A stretch of 12,390 nucleotides of DNA, from NCBI GenBank assembly GCA_023393155.1, contig JAEWML010000003.1, positions 1 to 12,390 of the forward strand, in the 5' to 3' direction. Every line of letters starts with the position of its first letter. Position 1 is the first letter of the stretch. Below, piece after piece: positions 387-12,390 of the stretch. Origin of the DNA: Bacillota bacterium (GTDB lineage Bacteria > Bacillota > Clostridia > Oscillospirales > Oscillospiraceae). The notes under the pieces are model-generated. The model made no database searches and was not told the origin of the DNA. It saw nothing but the letters and a program-made list of their open reading frames with translations. Made by a program: the position numbers and the translations under genes.

Positions 387-1082
387 TTACGGTTTAAGCG
401 TCTCCAGAAACCGGTGCAGAAACACCAGCATCTGCTCCCGGGTGCACCAGCTTTTATACTGATAGGTCCCGTCGCCAGCTCCCCGCACGATCCCGTTTTT
501 CTCAGCCCATCCGCGGGCCTCCTCCGAGAAATCGCCGGGAGGCAGCTCCCCCCGCTTTTGCAGCCATACGTTCATCATCGCGTCAAATTCGTTTTGGGTC
601 ACTTTTTCCTCCTCATACTCGGGGCGAAGCGCCCCCACCGCATACCGTGAAGCCCGCATCCTCCTCTGCACCTCGCCGCCGTTGGCGTCGCTGAGCGTAC
701 CGGTATTTCCCTCAATCGTGACAAGGCTTCCGTCGGTGTTCACCCGTTCAACCACGCCCACGTGTTCAATAACAGTTCCACTGAATTGGAAGAACACCAG
801 ATCTCCGGGCCGATAGTTTTTTTCCGCAAACAGCCCGTTTTTTCGGGCCCAATTTGCCAGAGCGCCGCTTGAGGCGGTTTTGCCCCCGCCATAGAACAGC
901 TCGCTCAGCCCCGCTTCCCGAAAGCACCACCAGAGAAATACGCAGCACCACGGATAGCTGTCTCCGGACGTTTCCCTTCCGTAGTAGGCAGTGTTGTATT
1001 TCACCTGATTGCTTCCAGCCGGGGATTCCTTCGTTCCCAGTTCCCGCCGCGCAACGGCCAGCAGTTTTTCCGCCCCTGTCAT
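387..1082 (-). CDS. Endolysin: CHAP-domain peptidoglycan hydrolase with SLH-like C-terminus
   Basis: A 231-residue lysis enzyme that would cut host peptidoglycan once holins open the membrane. Residues about 1-150 form a CHAP (NlpC/P60-like) cysteine amidase/peptidase domain. The likely catalytic Cys46 or Cys47 is in YPWCCVFLWWCF, His107 in IEHVGVVERV, and the polar partner near Glu124/Asn126 in EGNTG. After an acidic linker (about 155-165), residues 165-231 (GDFSEEARGWAEKNGIVRG ... TREQMLVFLHRF) resemble an S-layer-homology-type wall-binding module. No signal peptide is visible, as expected for holin-dependent export. The ATG overlaps the stop of the upstream holin gene by 4 bp (ATGA), implying translational coupling. 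It is the last gene of the operon. Catalytic class is sure; exact bond cleaved is not. Confidence 0.9.
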   Translation of the reverse strand: MTGAEKLLAVARRELGTKESPAGSNQVKYNTAYYGRETSGDSYPWCCVFLWWCFREAGLSELFYGGGKTASSGALANWARKNGLFAEKNYRPGDLVFFQFSGTVIEHVGVVERVNTDGSLVTIEGNTGTLSDANGGEVQRRMRASRYAVGALRPEYEEEKVTQNEFDAMMNVWLQKRGELPPGDFSEEARGWAEKNGIVRGAGDGTYQYKSWCTREQMLVFLHRFLETLKP

Positions 1083-1330
1083 GCTCTGTCCGCGCTCTTC
1101 AGCGCGTCCGCGGCGTCCCTGGCTGCGCCTGCCGCACGCTTGACGCCCTCGGCGTCTACTTTGCCCTCCGTGACGATATACGTCGTCACGGAGGCAATCG
1201 CCACCACTGCTCCCGCCACAGTGGAAATCACATTTTCATCCAGCCCAAACACCATGGCAAGGCCTGTGACAATTCCCGCCACAGCCGCCCACAGCTTTCG
1301 CGAGCTGAGCTTTCTCAGCAACTCTCTCAT
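1079..1330 (-). CDS. Holin-like small membrane protein
   Basis: An 83-residue protein with a basic N-terminus (MRELLRKLSSRK), two hydrophobic segments at about 13-30 and 36-54, and a charged C-terminal tail. This is the usual layout of Gram-positive phage holins, which permeabilise the membrane and release the endolysin. The ATG at 1330 is chosen because GGGGAG lies 6 bases upstream. A TTG at 1348 would add six residues without a good ribosome site and would overlap the preceding stop. The gene is coupled to the endolysin gene by an ATGA overlap. Holin role inferred from size, topology and position. Confidence 0.78.
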   Translation of the reverse strand: MRELLRKLSSRKLWAAVAGIVTGLAMVFGLDENVISTVAGAVVAIASVTTYIVTEGKVDAEGVKRAAGAARDAADALKSADRA

Positions 1331-1344
1331 AGAATTCTCCCCTC

Positions 1345-1611
1345 TCAAAAATCCTCGTCCATTCCCATCGCCGCGTCATAGATGATGCCGCCTCGGGTGT
1401 TCTCCGCCTTGCTCTTTCCAAAATACGCCGCCAGCACCACCGCCGTGGACGCTTGCAGCGCTCCAATCAGCGTGGTGAGATACGGTAGCGTCCCGGTAAA
1501 CTGGCTGCGGATTGCCAGATAGCAAAAATACAGCACCACGCATGTGCAAATTGCGTCCAGGCTCAAAATTCCCAGCGCAATAATTTTTGATGCCGTCAAT
1601 TTTCCTTTCAT
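1345..1611 (-). CDS. Small two-helix membrane protein, holin or holin partner
   Basis: An 88-residue protein with membrane segments at about 8-33 and 43-64, then a short polar tail (KSKAENTRGGIIYDAA ... DEDF). The start ATG has GGGGAGG 6 bases upstream and overlaps the stop of the XhlA-like gene (ATGA). The tail motif GGIIYDAA is familiar from small membrane proteins in Clostridia prophages, but I cannot name a family. It lies between the XhlA-like gene and a second holin-like gene, so it is probably a holin, an antiholin, or a membrane partner of the XhlA-like protein, analogous to XhlB in PBSX. Which of the two small membrane proteins forms the lesion cannot be told from sequence. Confidence 0.75.
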   Translation of the reverse strand: MKGKLTASKIIALGILSLDAICTCVVLYFCYLAIRSQFTGTLPYLTTLIGALQASTAVVLAAYFGKSKAENTRGGIIYDAAMGMDEDF

Positions 1612-1904
1612 ATAGTGCCTCCCCTCGTCAGCAGGAAGGTGACAAACGCCCCCGCCAAAATCAGAAGGACTTTGTCCACCAGTCCATCCCACCGTTTTCC
1701 CGGCCGACGCTCCAGCGCATCCATTTTCTCTCCCAATCGCGCCACGCTTTCGGCCACCGTCTCCTGCTTTGTCGCCAGCACCTCCACCGCAGTGGCCAGC
1801 CGCCGCAGCGTCTCCTGACTCTGCTCCAGCGCGCCGATCCGCCGGATGTTGGAGGACACACGTTCCTCCAGCGCCGTGATTCGTCCACTCCACCCCTGTT
1901 CCAT
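1608..1904 (-). CDS. XhlA-like lysis protein: coiled coil plus C-terminal membrane anchor
   Basis: A 98-residue protein. Residues about 6-66 are a heptad-rich coiled coil (ALEERVSSNIRRIGALEQ ... VARLGEKMDALERR). Residues 76-93 (LVDKVLLILAGAFVTFLL) are one membrane segment near the C-terminus. This matches XhlA-type haemolysin/lysis proteins, which act with a holin at the cytoplasmic membrane. The ATG at 1904 lies one base after the TAA of the upstream XkdU-like gene, so the lysis cassette follows the baseplate genes directly. The stop overlaps the next ATG. A longer in-frame reading begins upstream, but it lies inside the XkdU-like gene in another frame and has no support. Confidence 0.8.
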   Translation of the reverse strand: MEQGWSGRITALEERVSSNIRRIGALEQSQETLRRLATAVEVLATKQETVAESVARLGEKMDALERRPGKRWDGLVDKVLLILAGAFVTFLLTRGGTI

Positions 1905-1905
1905 A

Positions 1906-2472
1906 TTACACCGCCAATTCAAAGCTGTGCCACGTGTGTGCCGCGGCCTCCACCGCGTCCCATGTCCAGCCATAGTCCTCACACTCCGACCAGAGCATAT
2001 AGCGGAAGTAAAACTCCGTCTCCAGATGGCAGGGGATGATATCCAGCACAATTTTTTGAATCTGCGGAAATTCCTCCGGAATTCCTCCCACATCCGGGAA
2101 AATCACCCGGATGTGGCCTCCTCCCATTTCCTGAGCCAGCGCCTTGATGCCACAGCCGCTGATGGTTCGGTTGATCGCGTCCAGTGAAAAACTGTCCGCG
2201 TCAATCTGCATCAGCGCCGCGATAGCCCTTCGCCGCAGGGCAACGGTGTTTGCCGCAGGCCGCCTTGCAAACAGCTCCTCCCGCCGATGCAACCCCTCTC
2301 CCTCCGCCGTGCCGGTCAGCGCCTCCCGCTCGATATATTCCAGACGGACTGAAATGTCGTCCAGTCCCGTGGCTTGGGCAAACAGCTCGCTCTCGTTCAG
2401 CGTCCCGTCCCGGAGATCGTAAATGCCCAAGGGCGCCAGCAGGTTTTTCAAATGCGCTCCGTATTCCGCCAT
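1906..2472 (-). CDS. Baseplate protein, XkdU/YmfQ (DUF2313)-like, P2 gpI analogue
   Basis: A 188-residue protein. N-terminal MAEYGAHLKNLLAPLGIYDL, the middle IDADSFSLDAINRTISGCG, and the C-terminal LETEFYFRYMLWSECE and WDAVEAAAHTWHSFE fit the YmfQ/XkdU family of contractile-tail baseplate proteins. In P2 and PBSX this protein joins the baseplate periphery to the tail fibre. The ATG is one base after the TGA of the baseplate J gene, and the stop is one base before the next ATG. The gene that should follow, the tail fibre, is absent. Family assignment comes from motifs and position and is fairly sure. Confidence 0.82.
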   Translation of the reverse strand: MAEYGAHLKNLLAPLGIYDLRDGTLNESELFAQATGLDDISVRLEYIEREALTGTAEGEGLHRREELFARRPAANTVALRRRAIAALMQIDADSFSLDAINRTISGCGIKALAQEMGGGHIRVIFPDVGGIPEEFPQIQKIVLDIIPCHLETEFYFRYMLWSECEDYGWTWDAVEAAAHTWHSFELAV

Positions 2473-2473
2473 G

Positions 2474-3532
2474 TCACGCCCCCATTTCCGTTACGCGCAG
2501 CTCCCCCAGCGTGTAAAGAACCGTGGCGCTTCCCTGCCTGTCCGAGGAAGGGGACAGAATATGATAGTTTTTCACGCCGTCCACGGCGTAGATCAGCCGG
2601 CCAAGCTCCGCCAGCAGAATGGGCTTTCCCAGCAGCTTTCCCGTGAGCCACCCGGCAATTGCCTGCTCCGTCCGGCTTTTCACCGCGGCAAAATCTCCGT
2701 TCTCGCCCACGTCCAGCTCCACCGCCACCTCCAAGCGGCTTTCTTGCGGAGCCAGCACCCGCACATCCACCGCAATCTCCCGCTTGGCCTGCAAATCGGT
2801 CTCCACCTCTTGCAGCAGCGCCGCGTCCGGCGCCCCCGAGGATTTTGCAATGTACACATCCACCGTACCGATGCCCCTCGCCCGGCCCACCGCCACCGCT
2901 GCCGCCACGCCCTGATGCCGCAGTGCCTGTTCCTCGTAAAAGGCGGCGTTGGCCCCGTTTGGCAGCCGCTCAAAGCTGTCCAGCACCCGTGCGCGGAGGG
3001 CCTCGTCGCTCTCTGCGTCGCTCCCACCGGAAAATGCCGCCGGATTTGTGCACCCGGTAATTCCCATGGGACATGCCGCCAGCACCGTCACACTCCAGGC
3101 AGCGGCATTGCCGCCGCTTCCCGGCTCCAGCGCCTCGGCGGATACGTCCGCCGTCAACGTCCCCGCCGCCAGCACCGCCGCCCGGGTGGTCTGAAAGCGC
3201 ACCCCGCTCTCCGTCATGCACACGCTTCCCATGGGAATGCTCAAATCCTGCGCCGGCGCTTCCGCCACAGAAAACCGCAGCGTCCCCGCCGCCCGGGTCG
3301 CCGCCTGACGGACAATGCCCCGCATGGCTGCGTGATCATCCAGATAAGCACCCTGGGCCGTCTGGGGAAAGCTTTGATTCAGCACCCAGTCCGCCTGACA
3401 TTCCAGCGCCTGTACCTGCGCCGCCACCGCATACAGCCGCACCGCCAGATCACAGGCGTCCTCCGCACCGTAACCGGACCGCTCCCGGAATGCCGAGAGC
3501 AGCTCCTGATAAATTTCCTCCGTTGTTCTCAT
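2474..3532 (-). CDS. Baseplate J-like wedge protein (XkdT family)
   Basis: A 352-residue baseplate wedge component (P2 gpJ, Mu gp47, XkdT). Recognisable features are the helical N-terminus, the AYLDDHAAMRGIVRQAATRAAGTLRF segment at about 61-87 typical of baseplate J, the central NPAAFSGGSDAESDEALRARVLDSF block at about 162-187 that precedes the J domain, and the C-terminal half with alternating beta strands and helices. The ATG has GAGAGGAAAC immediately upstream. The gene follows the gp25-like wedge gene by 13 bases and precedes the gpI-like gene by one base, the standard wedge order in contractile tails. Length is normal for the family, with no sign of decay. Confidence 0.92.
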   Translation of the reverse strand: MRTTEEIYQELLSAFRERSGYGAEDACDLAVRLYAVAAQVQALECQADWVLNQSFPQTAQGAYLDDHAAMRGIVRQAATRAAGTLRFSVAEAPAQDLSIPMGSVCMTESGVRFQTTRAAVLAAGTLTADVSAEALEPGSGGNAAAWSVTVLAACPMGITGCTNPAAFSGGSDAESDEALRARVLDSFERLPNGANAAFYEEQALRHQGVAAAVAVGRARGIGTVDVYIAKSSGAPDAALLQEVETDLQAKREIAVDVRVLAPQESRLEVAVELDVGENGDFAAVKSRTEQAIAGWLTGKLLGKPILLAELGRLIYAVDGVKNYHILSPSSDRQGSATVLYTLGELRVTEMGA

Positions 3533-3545
3533 GTTTCCTCTCCCG

Positions 3546-3884
3546 TCACCGCACCGTAAGCTGCAGATTCAGCTCCTCCCCCTCGTAGTTCATCCGCACC
3601 GCCAGCTGATTTCCGTCCAATTCCACCTGCTCCACACGCAGGTTTTGTTCCTCCGCCAGCGCCTGTGCAACCGCCGCTTCCGCCGCGCCTTGCCGGTGGG
3701 AAGGCGATTCGCCTCCCAGCGCGTACAGTGTGCTGCCCAAATCCTCCAAAAGCGGAAACCCCCCCCGTCTTGCCGTCAGCCTGAACAGCACTCTTTGCAG
3801 CAGCGCGTCCCGGCCCTTCACCCGAACCGTTCCGCCCACGCCGTCGGCCACATAGTCCCCGCCTCTGATTTTCAGCTCCGTCAT
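3546..3884 (-). CDS. Baseplate wedge protein, gp25-like (XkdS/DUF2634 type)
   Basis: A 112-residue protein. The central FPLLEDLGSTLYALGG resembles the core of gp25/gpW-like baseplate wedge proteins, and the C-terminal half is alternating beta structure. This protein class nucleates sheath assembly on the baseplate. The ATG at 3884 is preferred over one 18 bases upstream: it overlaps the previous stop as ATGA and has GGAGGAG 7 bases upstream. It sits directly before baseplate J, as in PBSX (xkdS-xkdT), P2 and other contractile systems. Confidence 0.8.
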   Translation of the reverse strand: MTELKIRGGDYVADGVGGTVRVKGRDALLQRVLFRLTARRGGFPLLEDLGSTLYALGGESPSHRQGAAEAAVAQALAEEQNLRVEQVELDGNQLAVRMNYEGEELNLQLTVR

Positions 3885-4303
3885 TCCGATTCTCCTCCGC
3901 ACGTGCAGGGCTTGTAGACCTCGCCGTTCACACGCAACGTTCCGTTTATGTTCACCTGTCCCGTCAAAACGATGTTGCCCCGCAGCTCCACCGTCCCGTC
4001 GTTTTTGAGATACACGCTTCCGCCTTCAGCATGGATGTATACCTCGCCGGGCCGAAGCCCGGCAGGCGCATTCGTCTGCTTCGCTCCCGCCACGCAGGAC
4101 TCCTCCCCGCCGGTTCCGCCCTTGATAACCAGCACCGTCTCTCCCGCAGCGGGCCGCCAGGCGTACCCCCCCGGCCCGTAAACCGGGAGCGCCCGCACCT
4201 CGCCTTTGGTGACTACGCCCGCACTCTCTCCCGAAATACTCGTCACACCCAGATCAGCCCCGGGCACGGATACACCCGGTTTTGTCTGCTTTGATAACCA
4301 CAT
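3881..4303 (-). CDS. Short tail spike / baseplate puncturing protein (gpV/gp45-like)
   Basis: A 140-residue protein. Residues about 15-75 look like a small OB-fold domain (VVTKGEVRALPVYGPGGYAWRP, then ETVLVIKGG). Residues about 88-128 form short repeating beta strands (VYIHAEGGSVYLK, TVELRGNIVLTGQVNING), as in the triple-stranded helix of contractile-tail spikes. It would trimerise under the hub and pierce the envelope. The C-terminus has Cys-Thr-Cys-Gly-Gly and no visible His-x-His iron-binding tip motif. ATG 4303 is chosen for its AGGAG 9 bases upstream. An ATG at 4339 would add 12 residues and overlap the hub gene by 11 bases. The gene lies between the hub and the gp25-like wedge gene, as expected. 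Confidence 0.78.
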   Translation of the reverse strand: MWLSKQTKPGVSVPGADLGVTSISGESAGVVTKGEVRALPVYGPGGYAWRPAAGETVLVIKGGTGGEESCVAGAKQTNAPAGLRPGEVYIHAEGGSVYLKNDGTVELRGNIVLTGQVNINGTLRVNGEVYKPCTCGGESE

Positions 4304-4328
4304 CGCTTTTCGCTCCTCTCCACCCGGC

Positions 4329-5270
4329 TCATTTCTCACGCAGCGTCAACGTAACGGATTCTCCGCCGCCGTCAGCCCGTGTTCTGGCCTCCGCCACGCG
4401 ATAGGTCCCCGTCAGCCCCATCCGCGCCAGCTTTAAAACGGCCACGTCGCCGGGAAACGCCAGAAAGCCACCCGCCAGAGTCACTTCCACGGAAATCTCG
4501 TCCTCTTTTGACCTCGCAATCTGATACTCCCCGGTATACCGCATTTTGGCCCAGGTGCTCTGTCCCGGCGTGTACAGAACCCGGCGGCACTGCCCTCCCC
4601 GGGCAATCCACTCCTCGTTGCGCACGCTGTACGTCTGGTTTCTCGTCTTGTCGATTACCAGTATTTCAGACAACACGCCGTAGTGATCCTCCCGTTTTAC
4701 AAGCGACAAAACGTTTAATGAATCCGTAATTTCAAATGTCTTTCCCGTTTTTTCCTTGTCCGCCCACAACCGTCCAAACCGGTCAAAGCTTGGCGTAAAG
4801 CCGCCATAGGTCCTGCAAAAGTCTTCCAGCGCCTTCCACTGGCTGCTTCCCGCCGCCACGGTGTACATTTCCCCGCCGCTGCTGAGACTTGCCGTTTTGT
4901 CGCAGGGAATCCCGTAGGGCGTCACGTGATTTCTGATGATTTCCTCCAGCGTCGCCCCTTGATAGGCGGCTGCCCGGGCCTCGTTGTCCAGCAGCCGGGC
5001 GGCATAGCCCCGTCCCGCTACCAGTGCGCTGAGGCCCTCCCCCGTCTGGCGAAGCTCATACTCGTCCACAATTCCCCGCAGCAGCGCGGTTTCCCCGTCC
5101 ATCAGCGTAAACCCCGCCGCCTGCCGCAGCACCGGCTCCATTTCCGCCGTATAAAGACACGTCACCGCAAAGCTGTCGCAAGGCACAGTACCCGTATAGC
5201 ATACATCCCAGGTCAGCAGCGCAGGCAAATCGAAAACGCGATGATCGCACGTCGTAATTCTCCCCGTCAT
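4329..5270 (-). CDS. Baseplate hub protein, XkdQ / P2 gpD-like
   Basis: A 313-residue hub protein linking the tail tube to the spike. The [10 protein letters not shown] region near the N-terminus, the middle [19 protein letters not shown] and [19 protein letters not shown], and the C-terminal beta-rich part ([22 protein letters not shown]) fit the gpD/XkdQ late-control/hub family, which carries barrel domains around a helical insertion. Its ATG overlaps the stop of the LysM gene (ATGA). Order LysM protein-hub-spike-gp25-J matches PBSX xkdP-Q-R-S-T. Length is close to that of XkdQ. Confidence 0.85.
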
Positions 5271-5842
5271 TTCACCCGCACCTGATTTCCCGCATAGATG
5301 AGGTTTGGGTTTTTAATCTGGGGGTTTGCCGCAATCAGGCTTTGAAGCGTCACGCCATATTGCTTTGCTATCCCCCACAGCGTGTCGCCTTTTTTCACCG
5401 TGTACCATACGGCCGAGTCCGTGCTCTTCGCCGTGCCCGTCGCGCCGGTATTCTCCGCCGCGGTTGCCGCCGCCGTGAGAGACGCGCTCTGTCGGCAATC
5501 CTCCCAAAACTCAAATGCATATCCCACAAAATCCGGCTGCGGCTCCTCCGTTAACTGTAAAGATACGAAATACGCCTCTGCCGCCTGCCAGACGGGATGC
5601 ACCAGCAGCCCCGGCCCGTCCTGCTCGAACACTGCCGCCAGCTTTTGAAACTCCTGATAGGCGTTCACTCCCATGAACGCGCCCTGCCCCCGCATCACCC
5701 GGTGTCCCGGCCCCAACTCCTGCATGCAATATCGCCCGAAGGGCACCTTGTGCACCGCAATTTTTCTCTGCCATGTGACGGAATATGTCTCCGGATTGTG
5801 GGACCACACATAGTCCTTGTACCGCATCGGCGTCAGTTCCAC
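5267..5842 (-). CDS. LysM-domain tail protein (XkdP-like)
   Basis: A 191-residue protein. Residues about 1-115 form a conserved N-terminal domain typical of XkdP-type tail proteins ([17 protein letters not shown], then [21 protein letters not shown]). A low-complexity Ala/Thr linker covers about 119-145. A clear LysM module occupies about 147-191 ([19 protein letters not shown] ... [13 protein letters not shown]) and would bind peptidoglycan or help centre the hub. In contractile systems this class sits between tape measure and hub. The start is a GTG at 5842 with GAGGTG about 7 bases upstream; the next in-frame ATG is at 5827. The preceding gene ends 20 bases upstream and is not a normal tape measure. 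Confidence 0.87.
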
Positions 5843-5862: not shown

Positions 5863-6450
5863 TCAATACAGCGGATACCCGCCGTCATACCGTCTTGCGT
5901 CCCGCTGAAACGTCCGGGACAGTTCCCCGGCGGATACCCCGCCGTCCACCACCAGCACGGTTCCGGCGGTTTCGGCCGCGGCCCCTCCGCCCTCGAAAAA
6001 GAACTCCCCCGGGTAGATCATTTCCGCTCCGCCAAGCCCTTGTTCCGTGCCCGCGCCGTTTTTCCTCTGAATTGCATTTCTTCCCACATTCAGCCGTGCC
6101 GTCTCTGTCCGCCCGCTTCTTATAAAGGAGTTCTCCGCTCCCATGCTCCCCGCTGTGGCAATATCCGCATCCGTCAGTTCCCGTGTTCCCGCCGCCTGAT
6201 GAAGCCGCCCTTCCCCGCGCCGCGCCAGCAGCCGATTCCATGCCGCCATTTCTCCCGGAAAGCCCTGCCTTTCTTCCGGCTTCTCGGTGTGGGAGAGAAC
6301 CCGGAGAGCGCCGTCTCCGCCGCTCTCCGGCTCTGTCTCCCCGCCGCTCCCGGCCCGCTTCTCCTCGTCTTCCTCCCGCCGCTGCCCGCCGCCCAGCAAA
6401 GCGGCAAACATTGCCGCCTGCCGCCGCAGCGCGTCTTCAATGTAGTTCAT
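5863..6450 (-). CDS. Unrecognised 195-aa protein in the tape-measure position
   Basis: I do not recognise this family. It starts with an amphipathic helix (MNYIEDALRRQAAMFAALLG, 1-20). A charged, Gly/Glu/Arg-rich, probably disordered stretch follows at about 21-66, then a mixed region with some beta-like segments (FFEGG, TVLVVDGG). The end is a distinctive polar motif, ELSRTFQRDARRYDGGYPLY (176-195). No long coiled coil, hydrophobic membrane stretch, zinc-peptidase or muramidase motif typical of tape measures is present. The ATG overlaps the chaperone stop (ATGA), and the stop is 20 bases before the XkdP-like gene. So the gene is in register with its operon and shows no scar of a larger deleted gene. 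It may be a miniature tape measure or a replacement scaffold. Confidence 0.8.
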   Translation of the reverse strand: MNYIEDALRRQAAMFAALLGGGQRREEDEEKRAGSGGETEPESGGDGALRVLSHTEKPEERQGFPGEMAAWNRLLARRGEGRLHQAAGTRELTDADIATAGSMGAENSFIRSGRTETARLNVGRNAIQRKNGAGTEQGLGGAEMIYPGEFFFEGGGAAAETAGTVLVVDGGVSAGELSRTFQRDARRYDGGYPLY

Positions 6451-6761
6451 GCCCGCTTCCCCCGCATCGCCCGAAACCGCTCCGGATCAAAGCCGGCGTT
6501 TACTTCCGCGGGTAAATCAGTTTTTTTCCCCGCAAGCTGCCTTACAAGCGTCTCCATCTCTCCCGCCGTCAGTTCCTCCAGCACCGCCTCCGCGCTTTCA
6601 AACATCCGCTCTCCCCCAAGAAAACAGCTCTCCGCCAACACCCGGGCGTTGCACAAAAGCCCCCGCACCGTCTCGTTCTCCTCCTGTGCGGCCACGTCGC
6701 GCCAAATGCCCAGCAGTCGTCCCGCCGAAAGCGGCGTCAGTTTGTCCGGAGCCGTTTTCAT
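6447..6761 (-). CDS. Small tail assembly chaperone-like protein (XkdN position)
   Basis: A 104-residue, mostly helical acidic protein (LLGIWRDVAAQEENETVRGLLCNA, then FESAEAVLEELTAGEMETLVRQL). It sits directly after the tube gene, where tail assembly chaperones of the XkdN/gpE type lie. These chaperones coat the tape measure and recruit tube subunits. Its ATG overlaps the tube stop (ATGA) and its stop overlaps the next ATG (ATGA). It contains an A7 run (6521-6527), but the other forward frames close within about a dozen codons, so no frameshift-extended second chaperone form is apparent. Shorter than XkdN. Assigned by position, size and helix content rather than by a diagnostic motif. Confidence 0.6.
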   Translation of the reverse strand: MKTAPDKLTPLSAGRLLGIWRDVAAQEENETVRGLLCNARVLAESCFLGGERMFESAEAVLEELTAGEMETLVRQLAGKKTDLPAEVNAGFDPERFRAMRGKRA

Positions 6762-7147
6762 ACCGTCGTCTCAATGCGCCGGGAAGCCACCACAGTAATT
6801 TTTTCCGCCACCATGGCGTCCAGCTCACCCTGCTCGGAGATCGTACTCCACTGGCAACCCGAGTAGATAATCTTCCGGTCCGGTTTGCAGATCACCAGCG
6901 AAAAATCGCTGAGCTCATAAAAATTGATTCCGTCGGAAATTGCGTCGTCGGTGGCATACAGACGAGTCAGTTCCAAAGTATACTTGCTCTGTCCCTCGAT
7001 GGTTCCCACCGGCTCCCGCTCGCCAAATGCCTCCACGTTTTTGCTGGTCTTGCTGGCCTTGGCGGTGTAGCTCTGCACCACCGCCACCTTTTTCCCGTTC
7101 AGCTCCAGATAAATGTCCGCGCTGGTGGGAAATCCCATAACCTCCAT
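6758..7147 (-). CDS. Contractile tail tube protein (XkdM-like)
   Basis: A 129-residue protein forming the inner tube through which DNA would pass. The N-terminal PTSADIYLELNGKKVAVVQS, central GTIEGQSKYTLELTRLY and following FSLVICKPDRKIIYSGCQW are beta strands of the tail-tube fold seen in XkdM-type phage tube proteins. AAGGAG lies 8 bases before the ATG. It follows the sheath gene after a 34-base gap. Sheath-tube-chaperone order is standard for PBSX-like myovirus tails. Length is ordinary for the family. Confidence 0.87.
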   Translation of the reverse strand: MEVMGFPTSADIYLELNGKKVAVVQSYTAKASKTSKNVEAFGEREPVGTIEGQSKYTLELTRLYATDDAISDGINFYELSDFSLVICKPDRKIIYSGCQWSTISEQGELDAMVAEKITVVASRRIETTV

Positions 7148-7181: not shown

Positions 7182-8246
7182 TCACACCGTGATGTGGGCC
7201 GTCAGGTAAATCTGGTTCAGCCCGTGGGCCACCGCAAAGCTGAATTCCACAAGGCACGCGGTGGGGTCGTCCGCCGACACGCTCACCCGCACCTCGCCGT
7301 AGCTGTCGATGATCTCCGCCGCCAGCTTTTTTTCCAGCTCCACAATCACCTGCGACCGGATGGCCCCCCGGTTCTGCGCCGTGTTTTTGGTGCGGGAGAA
7401 TTTGCTGCGCAGCGAGGACCGCACCGCCGGAATCACGTCGTCCACAATCCGGATGGTGCTCAGCTCCCGCCATGTGGCGTCCGCCGTTCCGTCCGTGGTG
7501 GTTCTGGTCGTCACGCAGCGCACCGGGGAAATCACGCCCGCCACGCTCTCCAGAGGCGTCACGCCGCCCCGTACCAGCACGTCGACGTCGTTGTCCCCGT
7601 ATTCCGCGCTCAGTCCGCTCAGACCGTACAGCGCCGCTCCGTTCAGCGGAGCGGCCGGGTCGCTTCCTCCGGCCATGGCGCCTGCCATCGCTGCCGCGCA
7701 CAACACGCCCGAGGGCGCGCTCTCCCCGACCATGCCGTCCGGCCCTGTCAGCACCATCCGTTCGCTGTTCAGCTCCGCCGCGTGGGTTGTCAGCTCCGCC
7801 ACCGTCGCTCCGCCGGCTCCCACCACCGCGATTCGCTCTTTTCGTCCCGCGGACGAGGTTTCCACCGCCGTGCGCAGCGCCTGATGTACCGCAGCATCCG
7901 TACTGTCACATACCATGATTCGCACATCCTCCACGCCGCCCAGCGCGTCAAAGCCCGCCGTATAGTCCGAAACCGTGCCGCCGTCCGCCACCCGGACCGC
8001 CGCCACCTTGGACACTCCATTAAGAAACAGCAGCCGCAGAATCGCGCTCATCCCCGCCGCGCCCGCGTCCTCGCCGAACGCGCCAACGCCCTCGGTATAC
8101 CCCGTCAGCGTCGCCACCGCACCCTCAACGCCCTTGGCCGCTCTTGCCGCCACGCCCACGGTCTTGGCCCCGCTCCCGGCGGACACCACGGAGGACGCGT
8201 CGTAGGAGGAATACACCCCCGGCCGCTCATGCTTTGTCATGTTCAT
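7182..8246 (-). CDS. Contractile tail sheath protein (XkdK-like)
   Basis: A 354-residue sheath subunit. N-terminal KHERPGVYSSYDASSV is the typical sheath start that forms linker strands between subunits. The central region (about 90-190) carries an alpha/beta domain. The conserved C-terminal domain (about 240-354) includes ATWRELSTIRIVDDVIPAVR, RGAIRSQVIVELEKKLAAE and the final beta strands VEFSFAVAHGLNQIYLTAHI. It would polymerise around the tube and contract on triggering. It is compact: PBSX XkdK is over 100 residues longer, while the core domains are kept here. AAAGGGA lies 9 bases before the ATG, which overlaps the preceding gene by 20 bases. Confidence 0.93.
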   Translation of the reverse strand: MNMTKHERPGVYSSYDASSVVSAGSGAKTVGVAARAAKGVEGAVATLTGYTEGVGAFGEDAGAAGMSAILRLLFLNGVSKVAAVRVADGGTVSDYTAGFDALGGVEDVRIMVCDSTDAAVHQALRTAVETSSAGRKERIAVVGAGGATVAELTTHAAELNSERMVLTGPDGMVGESAPSGVLCAAAMAGAMAGGSDPAAPLNGAALYGLSGLSAEYGDNDVDVLVRGGVTPLESVAGVISPVRCVTTRTTTDGTADATWRELSTIRIVDDVIPAVRSSLRSKFSRTKNTAQNRGAIRSQVIVELEKKLAAEIIDSYGEVRVSVSADDPTACLVEFSFAVAHGLNQIYLTAHITV

Positions 8247-8733
8247 TTTTGATCGTCCCTTTCAGAATAAAGTCCAGCAGAGTCCCCGTATCACCGGAGT
8301 CCTCCGCCAGGAACACAGCCCTGCAAGCCGCGCTCCCCTTCCGTAAAAACATCCCCGTGGCTTTGTCCCACGCAATGCCGTTCCAGCTCATTTTCTCCAG
8401 CTTGAGCCCTGCGGGCAGTTTTTCCATCAGCGCGCCTGCAGCGGCCTCCATGGCCGTCTCGCAGTCACTCGCCCCCGCCGCCCGCACGCCGAGGGAAATC
8501 GTCACATCCATCTGCATTCCGTACAGCTCCCGGATGCTCCCTGTTTTTTCATCCCGCTTCTCGCCGAGATATCCGCTCAGCCCCACGGACTTTCCCTCCG
8601 CTGCCGCCACGTCCACAGACGCCACCGGCCCCTCATATTCCTTTGCCGCGCCCTCATAGGCGGCCATCGCCGCAAGCCCCGCGCCCTTCAGCGCGTCAAT
8701 CACCGCATCCCGCACCTGATTCAGTCCGTTCAT
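8227..8733 (-). CDS. Head-tail connector or tail terminator-type protein
   Basis: A 168-residue protein with an N-terminal helix (VRDAVIDALKGAGLAAMAAYEG), central beta strands (MQMDVTISLGVRA) and a helix followed by beta strands near the C-terminus. It occupies the slot between the head-closure protein and the sheath, where XkdI/XkdJ-like or tail terminator proteins lie in related phages. The ATG at 8733 overlaps the upstream stop (ATGA); an upstream in-frame start at 8769 would add only residues lying inside the preceding gene. No diagnostic motif was recognised, so the role rests on position and fold-like pattern. Confidence 0.65.
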   Translation of the reverse strand: MNGLNQVRDAVIDALKGAGLAAMAAYEGAAKEYEGPVASVDVAAAEGKSVGLSGYLGEKRDEKTGSIRELYGMQMDVTISLGVRAAGASDCETAMEAAAGALMEKLPAGLKLEKMSWNGIAWDKATGMFLRKGSAACRAVFLAEDSGDTGTLLDFILKGTIKNEHDKA

Positions 8734-9038
8734 TCCGCCGCCTTTCTCCGTTCCGTCAAAGCGGCCCACCAGCAGGCGGCTTTATCTCCCAGGCGTATTT
8801 CCTCGCAGTTGCGCACCGTATAGGTTCTCCCCTGAAATTCCACCCGGTCCCCCAGCCCTACTTCCGTCCTGCCAAGATAGGTCCATCGCCGGTCGTCCAC
8901 AGTTCCCAGAGAAGTGACTGCAAACGGCGCGGCTTTTTCCGTCTCCCTCGCAGGCTGAAAAAACGCCCGCGCCGCCGTGCCGTTCACCGTCACCGCCTGT
9001 CCGTATTTTCGGAAGATACGGTCCAACCGCGCCGTCAT
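8730..9038 (-). CDS. Head-closure / head-tail joining protein (XkdH-like position)
   Basis: A 102-residue, beta-rich protein (YGQAVTVNGTAARAFFQP, VTSLGTVDDRRWTYLGRTEV, GDRVEFQGRTYTVRNCEEI). These patterns are familiar from small head-tail joining proteins of Gram-positive phages. They form a ring that closes the portal-connector channel and receives the tail. The start at 9038 overlaps the upstream stop as ATGA. A longer open frame upstream (to 9284) is an unsupported Gly-rich shadow inside the previous gene. The end overlaps the next gene's ATG. Confidence 0.72.
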   Translation of the reverse strand: MTARLDRIFRKYGQAVTVNGTAARAFFQPARETEKAAPFAVTSLGTVDDRRWTYLGRTEVGLGDRVEFQGRTYTVRNCEEIRLGDKAACWWAALTERRKAAE

Positions 9039-9382
9039 CCCCGCACCCCCCGAAAGCGAAACTCCGCCGCCGTCACATAGGGCCCCATCAGCCGCTCCGC
9101 CTCCCGGCGCAGGGCCTCGGCACTCTTGCCGCCCTCCGGCTCCGTCACGGACACATTCCCCGCCGTAAACCGCATTCCGCCCCGGCCCGCCAGCAGGCCC
9201 GCCGCCGCGGAAAGTGCCGCCGCACAGAGGAATGCCTCCCGGCATTCCTCCGGCCCTACGCCCTCCCGGAGTCTCCCTGTCCACTCCTTCTCAGCCGCCT
9301 TGCACAACAGCGCCAGCGCCGTTTCCTCATCCTCTCCCGCGCCGGAGAGGGTCCTCGCCAGCGTTAAAATTTCCTCCTGCAT
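9035..9382 (-). CDS. Small helical head-tail connector protein
   Basis: A 115-residue, predominantly helical protein (EEILTLARTLSGAGEDEETALALLCKAAE, then AAALSAAAGLLAG). It lies directly after the major capsid gene, where connector/adaptor proteins that dock under the portal are encoded. ATG 9382 is chosen because GGGAG precedes it by about 8 bases. A GTG at 9412 would extend it by ten residues without a comparable site. No diagnostic motif; function inferred from size, helix content and gene order. Ala- and Glu-rich. Confidence 0.62.
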   Translation of the reverse strand: MQEEILTLARTLSGAGEDEETALALLCKAAEKEWTGRLREGVGPEECREAFLCAAALSAAAGLLAGRGGMRFTAGNVSVTEPEGGKSAEALRREAERLMGPYVTAAEFRFRGVRG

Positions 9383-9423
9383 TCTTGCGTCTCCCTTCTC
9401 CGCCGCTTTCACGCCGGAGTTTA

Positions 9424-10455
9424 TCAGATCTCCAGCACGCGGCTCGCTTCGGTAAACAGCTTCGCAAACCCGGAGATGGAGGTAATGGCCGCCCGCTCCA
9501 TCTGCCGGTCAATCAGCTTGTCATACTCCACCAGAACGTCTCCGGCGCAAATTTGCTCCAAAGCGTAGCCCTTGTCAAGGCCGATCAGCCTGCCTGCGGG
9601 CATGGCGCTGGTTCTCAGCAGTGTCGCACCCAGCGGGGTGGTCAGCGTGCCGGTCCCCTGGAAATTCAGTCCCGTCAGGGGATTCTGGAACTCGCTCAGC
9701 TTCAAAAGCTTCAGCATCACGTCGCCGCCCACCAGAATGGTGTTCATGGTGTAGGGGTCGAACTGGCTCCAAAATTCCAGCAGCGCGTCATAGCTCAGCG
9801 TCCCCTTGGTCCCGGAGATGGGCGCGGTGCCGATGGCGTAGCTTCTGGCCGGATTGCCGTTCCCGTCGCCGTCGCACAGGACCTTGATGGCGTCCTGTAA
9901 ATGCATTCTGCCGATGTAAGCGCCGATCTGCCGCAGCGTCACGGAGAACAGGTCCAGCCTCTGAAACCGGATCGCCTCATAGGAGGCCACCAGCATCCTG
10001 CCCCGCTTGTGCAGCCGCACCAGATTTTCCTGCGTCCGAATGGTGGTGGAGGGAATCGCGCCCCCCTCCTCCACACGCTTGAGCTCTTTCTCCTTCTCCG
10101 TGGGCACGGAGGCAATGGAGCGATAGTCCATTCCCTCGAAATTCGTCACCGTGGCGGTGATGGCGGGCAGAATGCTCTCCTCCTCCATCCCCTGGCGCAC
10201 CACCCGGGAGACAAACTCCGGGAACAGCACGGCGGAGTCGCTGGTTTTGAAAAACTTCTCCACCATGTCGCTGCCCGCGCCCTTTACCTTGATGTCAAAG
10301 CGCTTAAGCTGGCGCTGAAACGCGTCCAGCCCCTCCGCCGGGGTTCCTCTGTAATTTTCGCTGGGGTCCAGCTCCTCCAGTGTTTTGGAAAAGCTGCTGC
10401 CTGCCCTGTTGTACATGCCCTTTTCCAGCTTAATGTTCTCGTAATGATAAGCCAT
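9424..10455 (-). CDS. Major capsid protein
   Basis: A 343-residue protein forming the shell. The N-terminal about 60 residues are charged and helical. They are followed by MVEKFFKTSDSAVLFPEFVSRVVRQGMEEESILP at about 84-117, characteristic of capsid proteins of this PBSX/XkdG-like HK97-fold class. Next come an E-loop-like segment with IPSTTIRTQENLVRLHKRGRMLVASYEAI, and A/P-domain segments DAIKVLCDGDGNGNPA, DALLEFWSQFDPYTMNTILVGGD and LLRTSAMPAGRLIGLDKGYALEQICAGDV. AGGAG lies 8 bases before the ATG. It lies directly after the decoration-type gene and downstream of the protease. Length is within the usual range and it looks intact. Confidence 0.92.
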   Translation of the reverse strand: MAYHYENIKLEKGMYNRAGSSFSKTLEELDPSENYRGTPAEGLDAFQRQLKRFDIKVKGAGSDMVEKFFKTSDSAVLFPEFVSRVVRQGMEEESILPAITATVTNFEGMDYRSIASVPTEKEKELKRVEEGGAIPSTTIRTQENLVRLHKRGRMLVASYEAIRFQRLDLFSVTLRQIGAYIGRMHLQDAIKVLCDGDGNGNPARSYAIGTAPISGTKGTLSYDALLEFWSQFDPYTMNTILVGGDVMLKLLKLSEFQNPLTGLNFQGTGTLTTPLGATLLRTSAMPAGRLIGLDKGYALEQICAGDVLVEYDKLIDRQMERAAITSISGFAKLFTEASRVLEI

Positions 10456-10470: not shown

Positions 10471-10815
10471 TTAAAGTGCGAAGGTGACGGTACCCGCCAC
10501 AGCGTCCACCTCTGCCACCAGATACTTCCGTCTCTCCGCGTCCGTCTTTACGCCGCCGTCCCCGTCGCCGCTCAGGCCGCACCATCCCAAAACCGGCGCG
10601 CTTCCCGTGTAGCCGGCGGTGACAAACCCGCCAAGCTGAACGGCGCAGGCGTCGCCGCCCTTGCCCATGGAAATTACCTGTCCGCAGAAGTCCTCTCCCT
10701 CGCCGCAGGGTCCGACGGATCCGTTCCCGCTGACCTTCACCATTTCGCCTTCCCGCACCTCGGTGCAGGAAAAGGTTGCCGCCCACTGTCCGATTCCCTC
10801 AAAAGAAATGTTCAT
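10471..10815 (-). CDS. Small capsid decoration/stabilisation-type protein
   Basis: A 114-residue beta-rich protein with repeating short strands and glycines (MVKVSGNGSVGPCGEGEDF, CGQVISMGKGGDACAVQLGGF, RRKYLVAEVDAVAGTVTFAL). This pattern and its position just before the major capsid gene fit head decoration/fibre-type proteins that strengthen the shell after expansion. It has five cysteines, unusual for its size. AAGGAGG lies 6 bases before the ATG, one of the strongest ribosome sites in the operon and consistent with a protein needed in many copies. Function inferred from position and composition. Confidence 0.7.
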   Translation of the reverse strand: MNISFEGIGQWAATFSCTEVREGEMVKVSGNGSVGPCGEGEDFCGQVISMGKGGDACAVQLGGFVTAGYTGSAPVLGWCGLSGDGDGGVKTDAERRKYLVAEVDAVAGTVTFAL

Positions 10816-10910: not shown

Positions 10911-11834
10911 TCACACCCGAAACAGATCCCCGTCTCCCTGCTCCGCGCCCCGGTCCGCCCGGCGAAGCTGCACGGAAAATATCTTCTCTGCCCGGGCCTC
11001 ATAGGCTTTTTTCAGCTCCAGCAGCTCCGTCTCCTCCAGCTTGTCCGCAATGGACTGAAACACTGCCCCGTCCAGAGCCTCGTCGCTCACCAGCGCCAGC
11101 CGCACCACCTCCCGGCGCAGCCCCGAAAGGTAATTCCGCCCCAGCTCCGCCTGCTTGCGTAGGGTGTCCCATGCCTCCCGGAATTCCTTCCGCTGTCCCA
11201 CATACTGCTCCAGCTCCGCGCCCGACTGACCGCCGAAACGCTTCATCACGCCCGCTTCTCTTTGGGCAGGCACCGCCACAAAGGACCATTCATAGGCGTC
11301 TTTCGGCTCCCGCAACTCCACGTAGCACAGCTTCCCGCCATAGCTCTGCCCCTTCTGGTGCTGGCAGCTTCCGCTCTCTTCGCCGCACACGGAGCAAACG
11401 CTCCGCCCCACCGCGCACCCCACAGATACCTCTTTTTTGATGCCGCCCTCGATCTCCGCAATCAGGTCCGCGTTTTTCTCGGTCTTCATCAGATAGGCCC
11501 AGGCCTTGAGATAGCAGTACCCGTCTCCCGCCGCCGTGCTGCGGCCTGCCTCATGCACCAGCTCCGTCCGGTAAATCCGCGCGGTCTGCCCCAGCGCGGA
11601 CCACTGGTGGTCAAACACGCCGCTTTTCCCCACGAACAAATCCCCCAGCGCGTTCAACGCCGCCTCGTCAAACCGCTCAAAATCCCGGTCCACCTCGTTG
11701 TCACACAGCCGCACCGCAAAGGTGTATACCTGCTCCGCCGCCAGCGTCCCCTTGGAAAAACGGTTAATCAGACCCATGTCGTCCTCTCCGGCCGCCCACC
11801 GCTCCGCCGTACCCGCGTCTTTTCGCACGTCCAT
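10911..11834 (-). CDS. Prohead maturation protease with helical, possibly scaffold-like C-terminus
   Basis: A 307-residue protein. The VYTFAVRLCDNEVDRDFERF opening, His76 in VFDHQW, Ser137 in KKEVSVGC and the EWSFVAVPAQREAGV block at about 182-195 are hallmarks of serine prohead proteases of the XkdF/herpes-assemblin type, which trim scaffold and capsid during head maturation. Between catalytic elements lies CSVCG ... CQHQKG (Cys147, Cys150, Cys157, His159), a probable zinc knuckle. Residues about 205-290 are charged and helical, possibly the fused scaffolding part. Start is uncertain: ATG 11834 has GGGGAG only 3 bases upstream, whereas ATG 11777 (MGLINRFSKG) has GGAGAGG about 5 bases upstream and fits family N-termini better. 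The gene sits between portal and capsid genes, as expected. Confidence 0.82.
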   Translation of the reverse strand: MDVRKDAGTAERWAAGEDDMGLINRFSKGTLAAEQVYTFAVRLCDNEVDRDFERFDEAALNALGDLFVGKSGVFDHQWSALGQTARIYRTELVHEAGRSTAAGDGYCYLKAWAYLMKTEKNADLIAEIEGGIKKEVSVGCAVGRSVCSVCGEESGSCQHQKGQSYGGKLCYVELREPKDAYEWSFVAVPAQREAGVMKRFGGQSGAELEQYVGQRKEFREAWDTLRKQAELGRNYLSGLRREVVRLALVSDEALDGAVFQSIADKLEETELLELKKAYEARAEKIFSVQLRRADRGAEQGDGDLFRV

Positions 11835-11881: not shown

Positions 11882-12390
11882 TCACGCCTGTTTCTCCGCC
11901 GCGTCGTTCTCGATTCTCAGCCTCCGGGCTTGCTCCAGATACAGCGCCGCCCGGGCGTCCTCCACCTCGTCCTGCAAATTCACATCCTCCCAAACCGTCT
12001 CAAAGCCGCACCCGTAGCCGTGCATCCGCAGCCACAAACTGCAAATCCGCTCCACGGCGGGATTCAGCGTTCGCCGAATGGCGGTAACCTCGGTGGTCAG
12101 CATGTCGGCCTGTTGGGCGCTCATCCGCTCGGTGGAATTCCAGCTCAGCCCCAGCATAAACGGGGGAATCCCCGTCTTGGCCACAATCTGCTCCAGAATC
12201 TGCCGTACCGGCACCTCGCTGTCCAATATCTGCTCGTCGGCGCCGATGGCCTTGATCTCCACGTCGCCCACCGCCACAAAATCCCGCACGCGCCCGCTTT
12301 TCGCGTCCTGCATGGCGGCGGACCACTCCTCCGCCAATTGCCGGCTGCGCTCCTCCGCCTGCCCCCGTCCGTCCTCTCCGGGCTTGCAGG
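11882..12390 (-). CDS. Portal protein, C-terminal part (cut by the right edge)
   Basis: 168 residues are visible and the frame is open to the right edge, so the first part is outside the window. Features typical of phage portal proteins are the DVEIKAIGADEQILDSEVPVRQILEQIVAKTGIPPFMLGLSWNSTERMSAQQ stretch, then the long helical stem (TTEVTAIRRTLNPAVERICSLWL) and a C-terminal charged helix. Portals form the dodecameric ring through which DNA is packaged, and which nucleates head assembly. It is the first gene seen of the leftward operon and ends 47 bases before the protease gene. The TTG at 12337 is an internal leucine codon, not a start. Confidence 0.9.
   Translation of the reverse strand, partial: CKPGEDGRGQAEERSRQLAEEWSAAMQDAKSGRVRDFVAVGDVEIKAIGADEQILDSEVPVRQILEQIVAKTGIPPFMLGLSWNSTERMSAQQADMLTTEVTAIRRTLNPAVERICSLWLRMHGYGCGFETVWEDVNLQDEVEDARAALYLEQARRLRIENDAAEKQA

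Follow-up and report, generated by a model that had tools for sequence, protein, structure and literature searches.

The stretch of DNA analysed here (the window, 12,390 nucleotides of Oscillospiraceae contig JAEWML010000003.1) carries genes for a contractile tail in which the tape-measure position, hereafter the slot, is occupied by a gene of only 195 codons. We consider the best explanation, and on balance a probable one, to be that this slot gene encodes a minimal ruler in a contractile-tailed particle that resembles a gene transfer agent (GTA) and has been domesticated by its hosts. The window is part of a whole particle cassette and not a tail operon alone, since the same run also includes head genes, and relatives carry the terminase genes TerS and TerL upstream; the TerL of the window's own copy falls beyond the window end. 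No description of the cassette was found in the literature searched (titles and abstract openings).

The slot gene and its relatives

A preliminary description of the window had placed a single gene of 195 codons between a chaperone-like and an XkdP-like gene, and the list of open reading frames (ORFs) gives this gene at 5863-6450 on the minus strand. The ATGA overlap of the chaperone and slot genes (6450-6447) and the 20-base gap to the LysM gene (5862-5843) are as described there. So is the PBSX-like order of the contractile-tail genes; the sheath, LysM, hub, wedge J and gpI-like proteins match PHROGs or Pfam families.

The survey of homologous loci suggested in that description was carried out. 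A search with the tube protein gave 26 IMG/VR loci, 25 of them true relatives (L026, a chance match to an unrelated virus, was dropped), and 252 relatives in GTDB genomes; the analysis went on with the best 80 of these. Of 107 loci, the window included, 104 contain the tube gene together with the LysM gene. A sheath scan, limited to the best 80 of 126 matches, added 65 new locus entries, 49 of them with both genes, for a total of 153; none was dropped for length, and some entries duplicate a contig or genome across collections (L001 and L027, for example). The named genera among the relatives are Oscillibacter, Dysosmobacter, Flavonifractor, Pseudoflavonifractor, Intestinimonas, Pelethomonas and Pseudoscilispira, and the rest are labelled Oscillospiraceae, Clostridia or Clostridiales. 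In all 153 loci the interval from the tube to the LysM gene is at most 1,535 bases, and none holds a large tape measure of the PBSX type in the slot. Because the short interval is the rule across loci, it does not reflect a simple deletion, as had been argued earlier from the gene spacing. A recent deletion of a larger gene is rejected for the family and could apply to single strains. The absence of a normal tape-measure gene is confirmed as an observation, the slot being short everywhere; a tail with no tape measure of any kind is not supported, since the slot gene occupies the ruler position.

That position is defined by its neighbour: the slot is the tape-measure position because a chaperone of the G/GT type directly precedes it. 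The product of 6447..6761 is predicted to be this tail assembly chaperone from its fold and from frameshifted relatives. Its model is confident (predicted local distance difference test, pLDDT, 87.6), and its best match in the PDB is the HK97 tail assembly chaperone 2ob9 (probability 0.91, E 0.21). Among 26 loci grouped by interval layout as Flavonifractor-type, 22 (L012-L019, L021, L023, L082, L085, L090-L093, L095, L096, L102 and L104-L106) have, in the gene after the tube, an A AAA AAA heptamer at codon 108-119 leading to a -1 frame of 98-101 amino acids, which is the known G/GT pattern. The other four (L020, L022, L101 and L103) have one fused ORF of 212-224 amino acids, and among 77 other loci a single one has the slippery site. 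At its end the -1 frame carries an N-x-x-FD stretch, as does the single-frame chaperone of the window. The second part of the slippery-site chaperones also carries cysteine pairs, which by eye are zinc-ribbon-like.

By a simple pattern with first start codons, the slot ORF is 101-403 amino acids long (median 194) in 102 of 104 loci. A single ORF of 211-403 amino acids that keeps the C-terminal end fills the interval in 12 of them (L077-L080, L084, L086-L088, L094 and L098-L100); no separate chaperone was recognised in these 12, and four have a chaperone-like end. Slot sequences with the C-end pattern number 150, of which 141 are distinct. End profiles, derived from an alignment of 21 sequences of the window's type that had been chosen for their recognisable start, were run over all frames of the 104 intervals. 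The C-terminal motif LSRxFQRDARRYDGGFxLY was found by profile in 103 intervals (78 by a strict pattern, 102 by a looser one) and the N-terminal end in 64 (61 of 90 by a strict pattern). Both ends lie in one open frame in 60 of the 104, spanning 118-297 residues with a median of 185.

The middle of the protein behaves differently from its ends. In 12 close pairs, the ratio of non-synonymous to synonymous substitution rates (dN/dS) of the slot gene was 0.40-0.78; dN was lower in the 25 + 25 end residues than in the middle in all 12 pairs, and dN/dS in 11. The lengths differed by at most 4 residues in 10 of these pairs and by 10 and 12 in the others (the pairs overlap in part and were compared without a null model). 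An AlphaFold2 model, based on an alignment of 21 rows, has a mean pLDDT of 59, with helices at 3-19, 65-89, 94-109 and 174-188 and no long helical rod. The preliminary estimate of a 30 nm tail presumes a protein that is helical throughout; the model assigns helix to 73 of the 195 residues and has low confidence over most of the others.

We believe that the slot gene probably encodes a miniature ruler. As a minimal tape measure, its product would be anchored at both ends of a short tail through the N-terminal helix and the C-terminal motif, and the middle stretch would join these ends with hardly any demand on its sequence. Slot proteins of 164 amino acids (L012, L090) and 297-298 amino acids (L072, L076, L083) occur in otherwise comparable cassettes, and if the protein is a ruler, their tails should differ in length about 1.8-fold. 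Species with slot proteins of such different natural sizes would show whether the length of the tail follows that of the putative ruler.

Several findings weigh against a ruler. The N-end signature is limited to the window's type of locus (64 of 104, 60 of them in frame with the C-end), and the end profiles do not place both ends throughout the family. The C-end stands alone in 40 loci, comprising the 12 single-ORF loci and 28 that are mostly Flavonifractor-type; the starts of these 28 resemble the window's type by eye and score nothing. L010 has the N-end without the C-end. In three entries (L001, which is L027, Oscillibacter ruminantium GH1; and L065) the two ends lie in different frames, by either a real frameshift or an assembly fault; O. 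ruminantium GH1 is one of the window's two nearest named relatives. In Oscillibacter valericigenes Sjm18-20 the slot gene is open and encodes 193 amino acids. Neither the slot protein nor the chaperone matched a PHROGs or Pfam family, and no tape-measure family was found for the former.

The slot protein might instead be a tail initiator or plug, with the tube length set by the terminator, by the chaperone or not at all, as in the type VI secretion system, which is not known to have a tape measure. Such a role would suit the low-confidence, partly helical model from 21 sequences, the lack of a tape-measure family match and the fact that the C-end alone is common to nearly all loci. It would also suit a composition rich in Ala, Gly, Glu and Arg; at the median, slot proteins have no strongly hydrophobic stretch. 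It accounts less well for the slot position after the chaperone, for the pattern, in loci of the window's type, of two conserved ends flanking a variable middle and for the similar lengths of close species despite a diverged middle, and we regard it as unlikely.

Another possibility is that the tail draws in trans on an ordinary tape measure encoded by a different prophage or locus in the cell. The preliminary description named a large ruler elsewhere in the same element, or close relatives with a full-length gene, as findings that would speak against its reading. Neither was found: the longest slot ORF has 403 amino acids, and 12 of 30 cassette genomes match neither of the tape-measure families PF10145 and PF20155, but 18 match at least one somewhere (8 for PF10145 and 16 for PF20155; E up to 0.001). 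Matches over the cut-off lie in frames of 613-1,635 amino acids for PF10145 (11 of 11) and of 646-832 for PF20155 (16 of 18, the others being 275 and 3,155). Known-genome controls were positive in 7 of 14 cases for PF10145 and 5 of 14 for PF20155. Because many of the genomes are drafts and other families lay outside the search, which covered these two, the lack of a match in 12 genomes is not proof of absence. A ruler in trans could operate in the 18 genomes with a match; with 12 genomes matching neither family, we consider it a very unlikely explanation of the short slot gene.

Content, descent and selection of the cassette

Of 46 genome loci with sufficient flanking sequence, 43 contain all 15 core genes, a count that excludes the chaperone and slot genes; in L103 and L104 the second connector was not detectable. 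The cassette is 12-13 kb long, with a median span from TerL to gpI of 12.4 kb in 42 loci, and some clades have chromosomal neighbours in common. A capsid match was found in 29 of the 30 genomes behind the loci, as a single match in 28. Among 300 sampled genomes of the family (completeness not factored in), 128 have a capsid match, which is single in 127, carries no internal stop and is partial in three. In the genus of Oscillibacter valericigenes 57 of 86 genomes have a match (single in 52, two of the others being split pieces), as do 20 of 20 in the genus of Flavonifractor sp. AGMB03687.

Co-descent with the host was tested in 26 of the 30 genomes, those with a ribosomal L2 match, all chosen for having the cassette. 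Comparison of six ribosomal with eleven cassette proteins gave a Mantel r of 0.952 (0 of 999 permutations), with 0.82-0.95 for single genes, and 14 of 17 well-supported host splits were recovered. No gene in any of the pairs computed had a dN/dS ratio as high as 1 (16 genes and seven partly overlapping pairs, some genes being absent in some pairs); the ratio was lowest for TerL (0.03-0.17, five pairs), the capsid protein (0.04-0.20, seven pairs) and, mostly, the tube protein.

One ORF cluster lies directly before TerL in 54 loci, all those with upstream flank, and is the small terminase. Motif patterns located Walker A in 68 of 68 TerL, Walker B in 65 and the three nuclease motifs in 58, 68 and 67. 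A short TerS of 91-104 amino acids occurs in L079, L085, L100, L102 and L103; four of the five match just positions 61-135 of the Terminase_2 profile, below the cut-off and two of them weakly (E 0.04 and 0.11), and the fifth does not match. The first 60 profile positions, missing from the short form, are presumably the DNA-binding part.

A domesticated GTA-like particle fits with a capsid gene that is nearly always single, a cassette that tracks the host tree and dN/dS below 1. We hold it to be very probable that the cassette is domesticated and mostly vertically inherited. Its genes (TerS, TerL, portal, head, connectors, sheath, tube, chaperone, ruler and baseplate) would encode a compact particle, domesticated by Oscillospiraceae and passed on mostly from parent to offspring. 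Some lysing cells would make the particle, its own terminase would fill it with host DNA, presumably at random, and the short contractile tail would deliver this DNA.

The following observations pull the other way. No capsid match was found in 172 of the 300 family genomes or in 29 of the 86 genomes of the O. valericigenes genus. The cassette tree contradicts 2 of the 17 well-supported host splits, and the cassette is 4.6 points higher in GC than its flanks. The portal match contains a stop in 2 of 24 loci. In L034 (7843-9985) the genes from the portal to XkdJ and the start of the sheath gene are missing and the tail is retained, through either a natural deletion or an assembly fault. All three TerS of the window's type that were compared with the Terminase_2 profile cover positions 5-130 of its 141. 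Neither the ORF list nor PHROGs pointed to a tail-fibre gene beyond gpI in the window, where no search aimed at fibres was made. A close relative of the window's CHAP endolysin adjoins the cassette in 7 of 30 genomes, and because of this, lysis and receptor binding may be encoded elsewhere, like operon II of the Faecalibacterium agent FpGTA.

The partial deletion in L034, the out-of-frame slot ends in O. ruminantium GH1 and L065, the portal stops and the lack of replication genes by eye would also be expected of a decaying prophage with a truncated tape measure. Against decay stand a capsid without internal stop in 128 of 128 genomes (three partial), dN/dS values below 1 wherever computed, the short interval in 153 of 153 loci and co-descent with the host; of the explanations considered we find this the least probable.

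An element that still passes from host to host, either a small temperate phage or a satellite, would agree with the GC excess, with the storage of the cassette as viral contigs in IMG/VR, with a tyrosine integrase (by eye) beside the L014 copy and with a weak Recombinase match (E 0.079) beside the window's copy. However, the other 106 loci contain no relative of either recombinase. Inspection by eye recognised no integrase or replication gene in the cassette and no recombinase, integrase or replication gene among flanking ORF clusters common to at least five loci (the flanks being short and other recombinase families not searched). The host-like tree and the single capsid match in 127 of 128 genomes also oppose mobility, which appears a remote prospect. 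The L014 integrase (15565-16737, minus strand) is accompanied by phage-type regulators directly after the cassette, perhaps as part of a second prophage, and at 4336-5310, at the portal end, the L014 translations contain a repeated coding stretch.

Searches of other collections were also made. The sheath gave five matches among phage records, the best two being unannotated human faecal contigs (64% and 57%), and the slot protein gave no match among phage records. A slot profile search, which could return just lengths 0.55-1.75 times that of the query, found 878 proteins among 7,995 scored; among the 120 listed, those with names are mostly hypothetical proteins of Oscillibacter and relatives.

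Gene map of the window

The genes of the window are listed in Table 1. The sheath has just 354 amino acids, and its phrog_279 match starts at profile position 211 of 489. An SLH domain suspected by eye in the endolysin was not found by Pfam. In L155 (position 3) and L156 (position 338) an endolysin homologue lies upstream of TerL and not downstream of the tail genes.

Table 1. Genes of the window from the portal end, with the basis of each assignment
Positions	Strand	Gene or product	Basis and remarks
11882..12388	-	Portal, cut by window end	89% identity with L001 and L002; the L002 portal matches PF04860 below cut-off
10911..11834	-	XkdF-position gene (protease or scaffold)	By position; phrog_16951, function unknown; no Pfam match
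10471..10815	-	Small head gene	By position; no Pfam match
9424..10455	-	Major capsid protein	PF25209, phrog_3922
9035..9412	-	Head-tail connector	By position; tblastn in relatives; no Pfam match
8730..9038	-	Head-tail connector	By position; ATG start inside ORF 8730-9284; tblastn in relatives
8227..8769	-	XkdJ-position gene before sheath (terminator or connector)	By position; phrog_25177, function unknown
7182..8246	-	Tail sheath, 354 aa	PF04984, PF17482, phrog_279
6758..7147	-	Tail tube protein, 129 aa	By position; phrog_27038 (function not named); alignment
6447..6761	-	Predicted tail assembly chaperone, single-frame, 104 aa	Fold match 2ob9; frameshifted form in relatives; alignment
5863..6450	-	Slot gene, 195 aa, candidate for a miniature tape measure	Helix at the N-terminus, variable middle, RDARRYDGG motif at the C-terminus
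5267..5842	-	XkdP-like LysM / DNA_circ_N tail protein	PF01476, PF07157
4329..5270	-	Baseplate hub	phrog_177
3881..4339	-	Spike	By position; phrog_25991, function unknown
3546..3902	-	Baseplate protein (XkdS/gpW position)	phrog_2669, phrog_975; PF10934 below cut-off
2474..3532	-	Baseplate wedge J	PF04865
1906..2472	-	gpI/Gp48-like tail protein	phrog_521; PF10076 below cut-off
1608..2093	-	Coiled coil and membrane-like segment, by eye similar to XhlA	Real start likely inside listed ORF; relative L001 without Pfam match over cut-off
1079..1348	-	Holin-like small membrane protein	By eye and position; no Pfam match over cut-off
387..1082	-	CHAP endolysin	PF05257
1-267	+	ORF running off window, beside endolysin	Weak Recombinase match PF07508, E 0.079, below cut-off

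Comparison with known systems

In PBSX of Bacillus subtilis the tape measure (XkdO) is large, and a tail fibre (XkdV) is present. The cassette shares with it the order of the contractile-tail genes but has 195 amino acids in the slot in place of the large XkdO and no recognised fibre in place of XkdV. The tape measures of PF10145 and PF20155 occupy the same position after the chaperone; unlike them, the slot protein has no family match and a model mostly of low confidence. PBSX is described as defective, packing 13 kb pieces of host DNA and acting similarly to a bacteriocin (PMC7667829). The same domesticated cassette could thus encode a killer of the PBSX kind, whose headed particles pack host DNA without injecting it and act as a bacteriocin against relatives. 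The PBSX-like gene order and the retention of the tail without head genes in L034 are in keeping with a killer. However, TerL and the capsid are, with the tube, the most constrained proteins and the TerL motifs are kept, which goes beyond the needs of a killer tail, and there is no recognised tail fibre for varying the target range. We consider a killer somewhat unlikely; given domestication, a GTA is the rather likelier of the two.

The agent FpGTA of Faecalibacterium is reported as podovirus-like and encoded in two separate operons of 10.5 and 5.5 kb (PMC12946183). By its description it resembles the cassette in belonging to gut Clostridia, in having packaging genes without replication genes and in being near-ubiquitous in its own genus. 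It differs in its podovirus-like form and its two operons, and its main text nowhere uses the words 'sheath', 'contractile' or 'tape measure' (PMC12946183). Its TerS is said there to be without an obvious DNA-binding domain, a loss that the window's TerS type does not show. The same source reports GTA-like packaging in Onthomonas, a member of Oscillospiraceae, in 3 of 25 events with the operon not located. Four metagenome-assembled genomes, one of them Onthomonas, were searched for the operon and a strong one was found in just one, Faecalibacterium; another Oscillospiraceae event, with 34.9 kb fragments, was assigned to generalised transduction (PMC12946183). It is conceivable, at somewhat less than an even chance, that the cassette is the GTA locus of Oscillospiraceae and accounts for the packaging in Onthomonas. 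It would then be an old, contractile-tailed system with its capsid in more than 40% of the sampled family genomes and a ruler cut down to docking ends and a stretch held in length and free in sequence. Among the 120 listed of 8000 proteins from the capsid search, few of which bear names, none was from Onthomonas. Should the particles pack host DNA and pass it on, this major family of gut Clostridia would possess its own means of exchanging genes, one that has escaped notice because the genes are filed in databases as fragments of prophages or as hypothetical proteins.

RcGTA, the gene transfer agent of Rhodobacter capsulatus, is encoded by a compact, vertically inherited head-tail cluster and has a non-contractile tail. 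Gene transfer has been demonstrated for it; for the cassette it would be a predicted function. The RcGTA tape measure has about 216 residues (113 + 83 + 20), in a 49 nm tail with five tube discs (PMC7296036). That ruler consists of a 113-residue helix and a beta part, unlike the slot protein. In size, a ruler like the slot gene product has a precedent in that of RcGTA.
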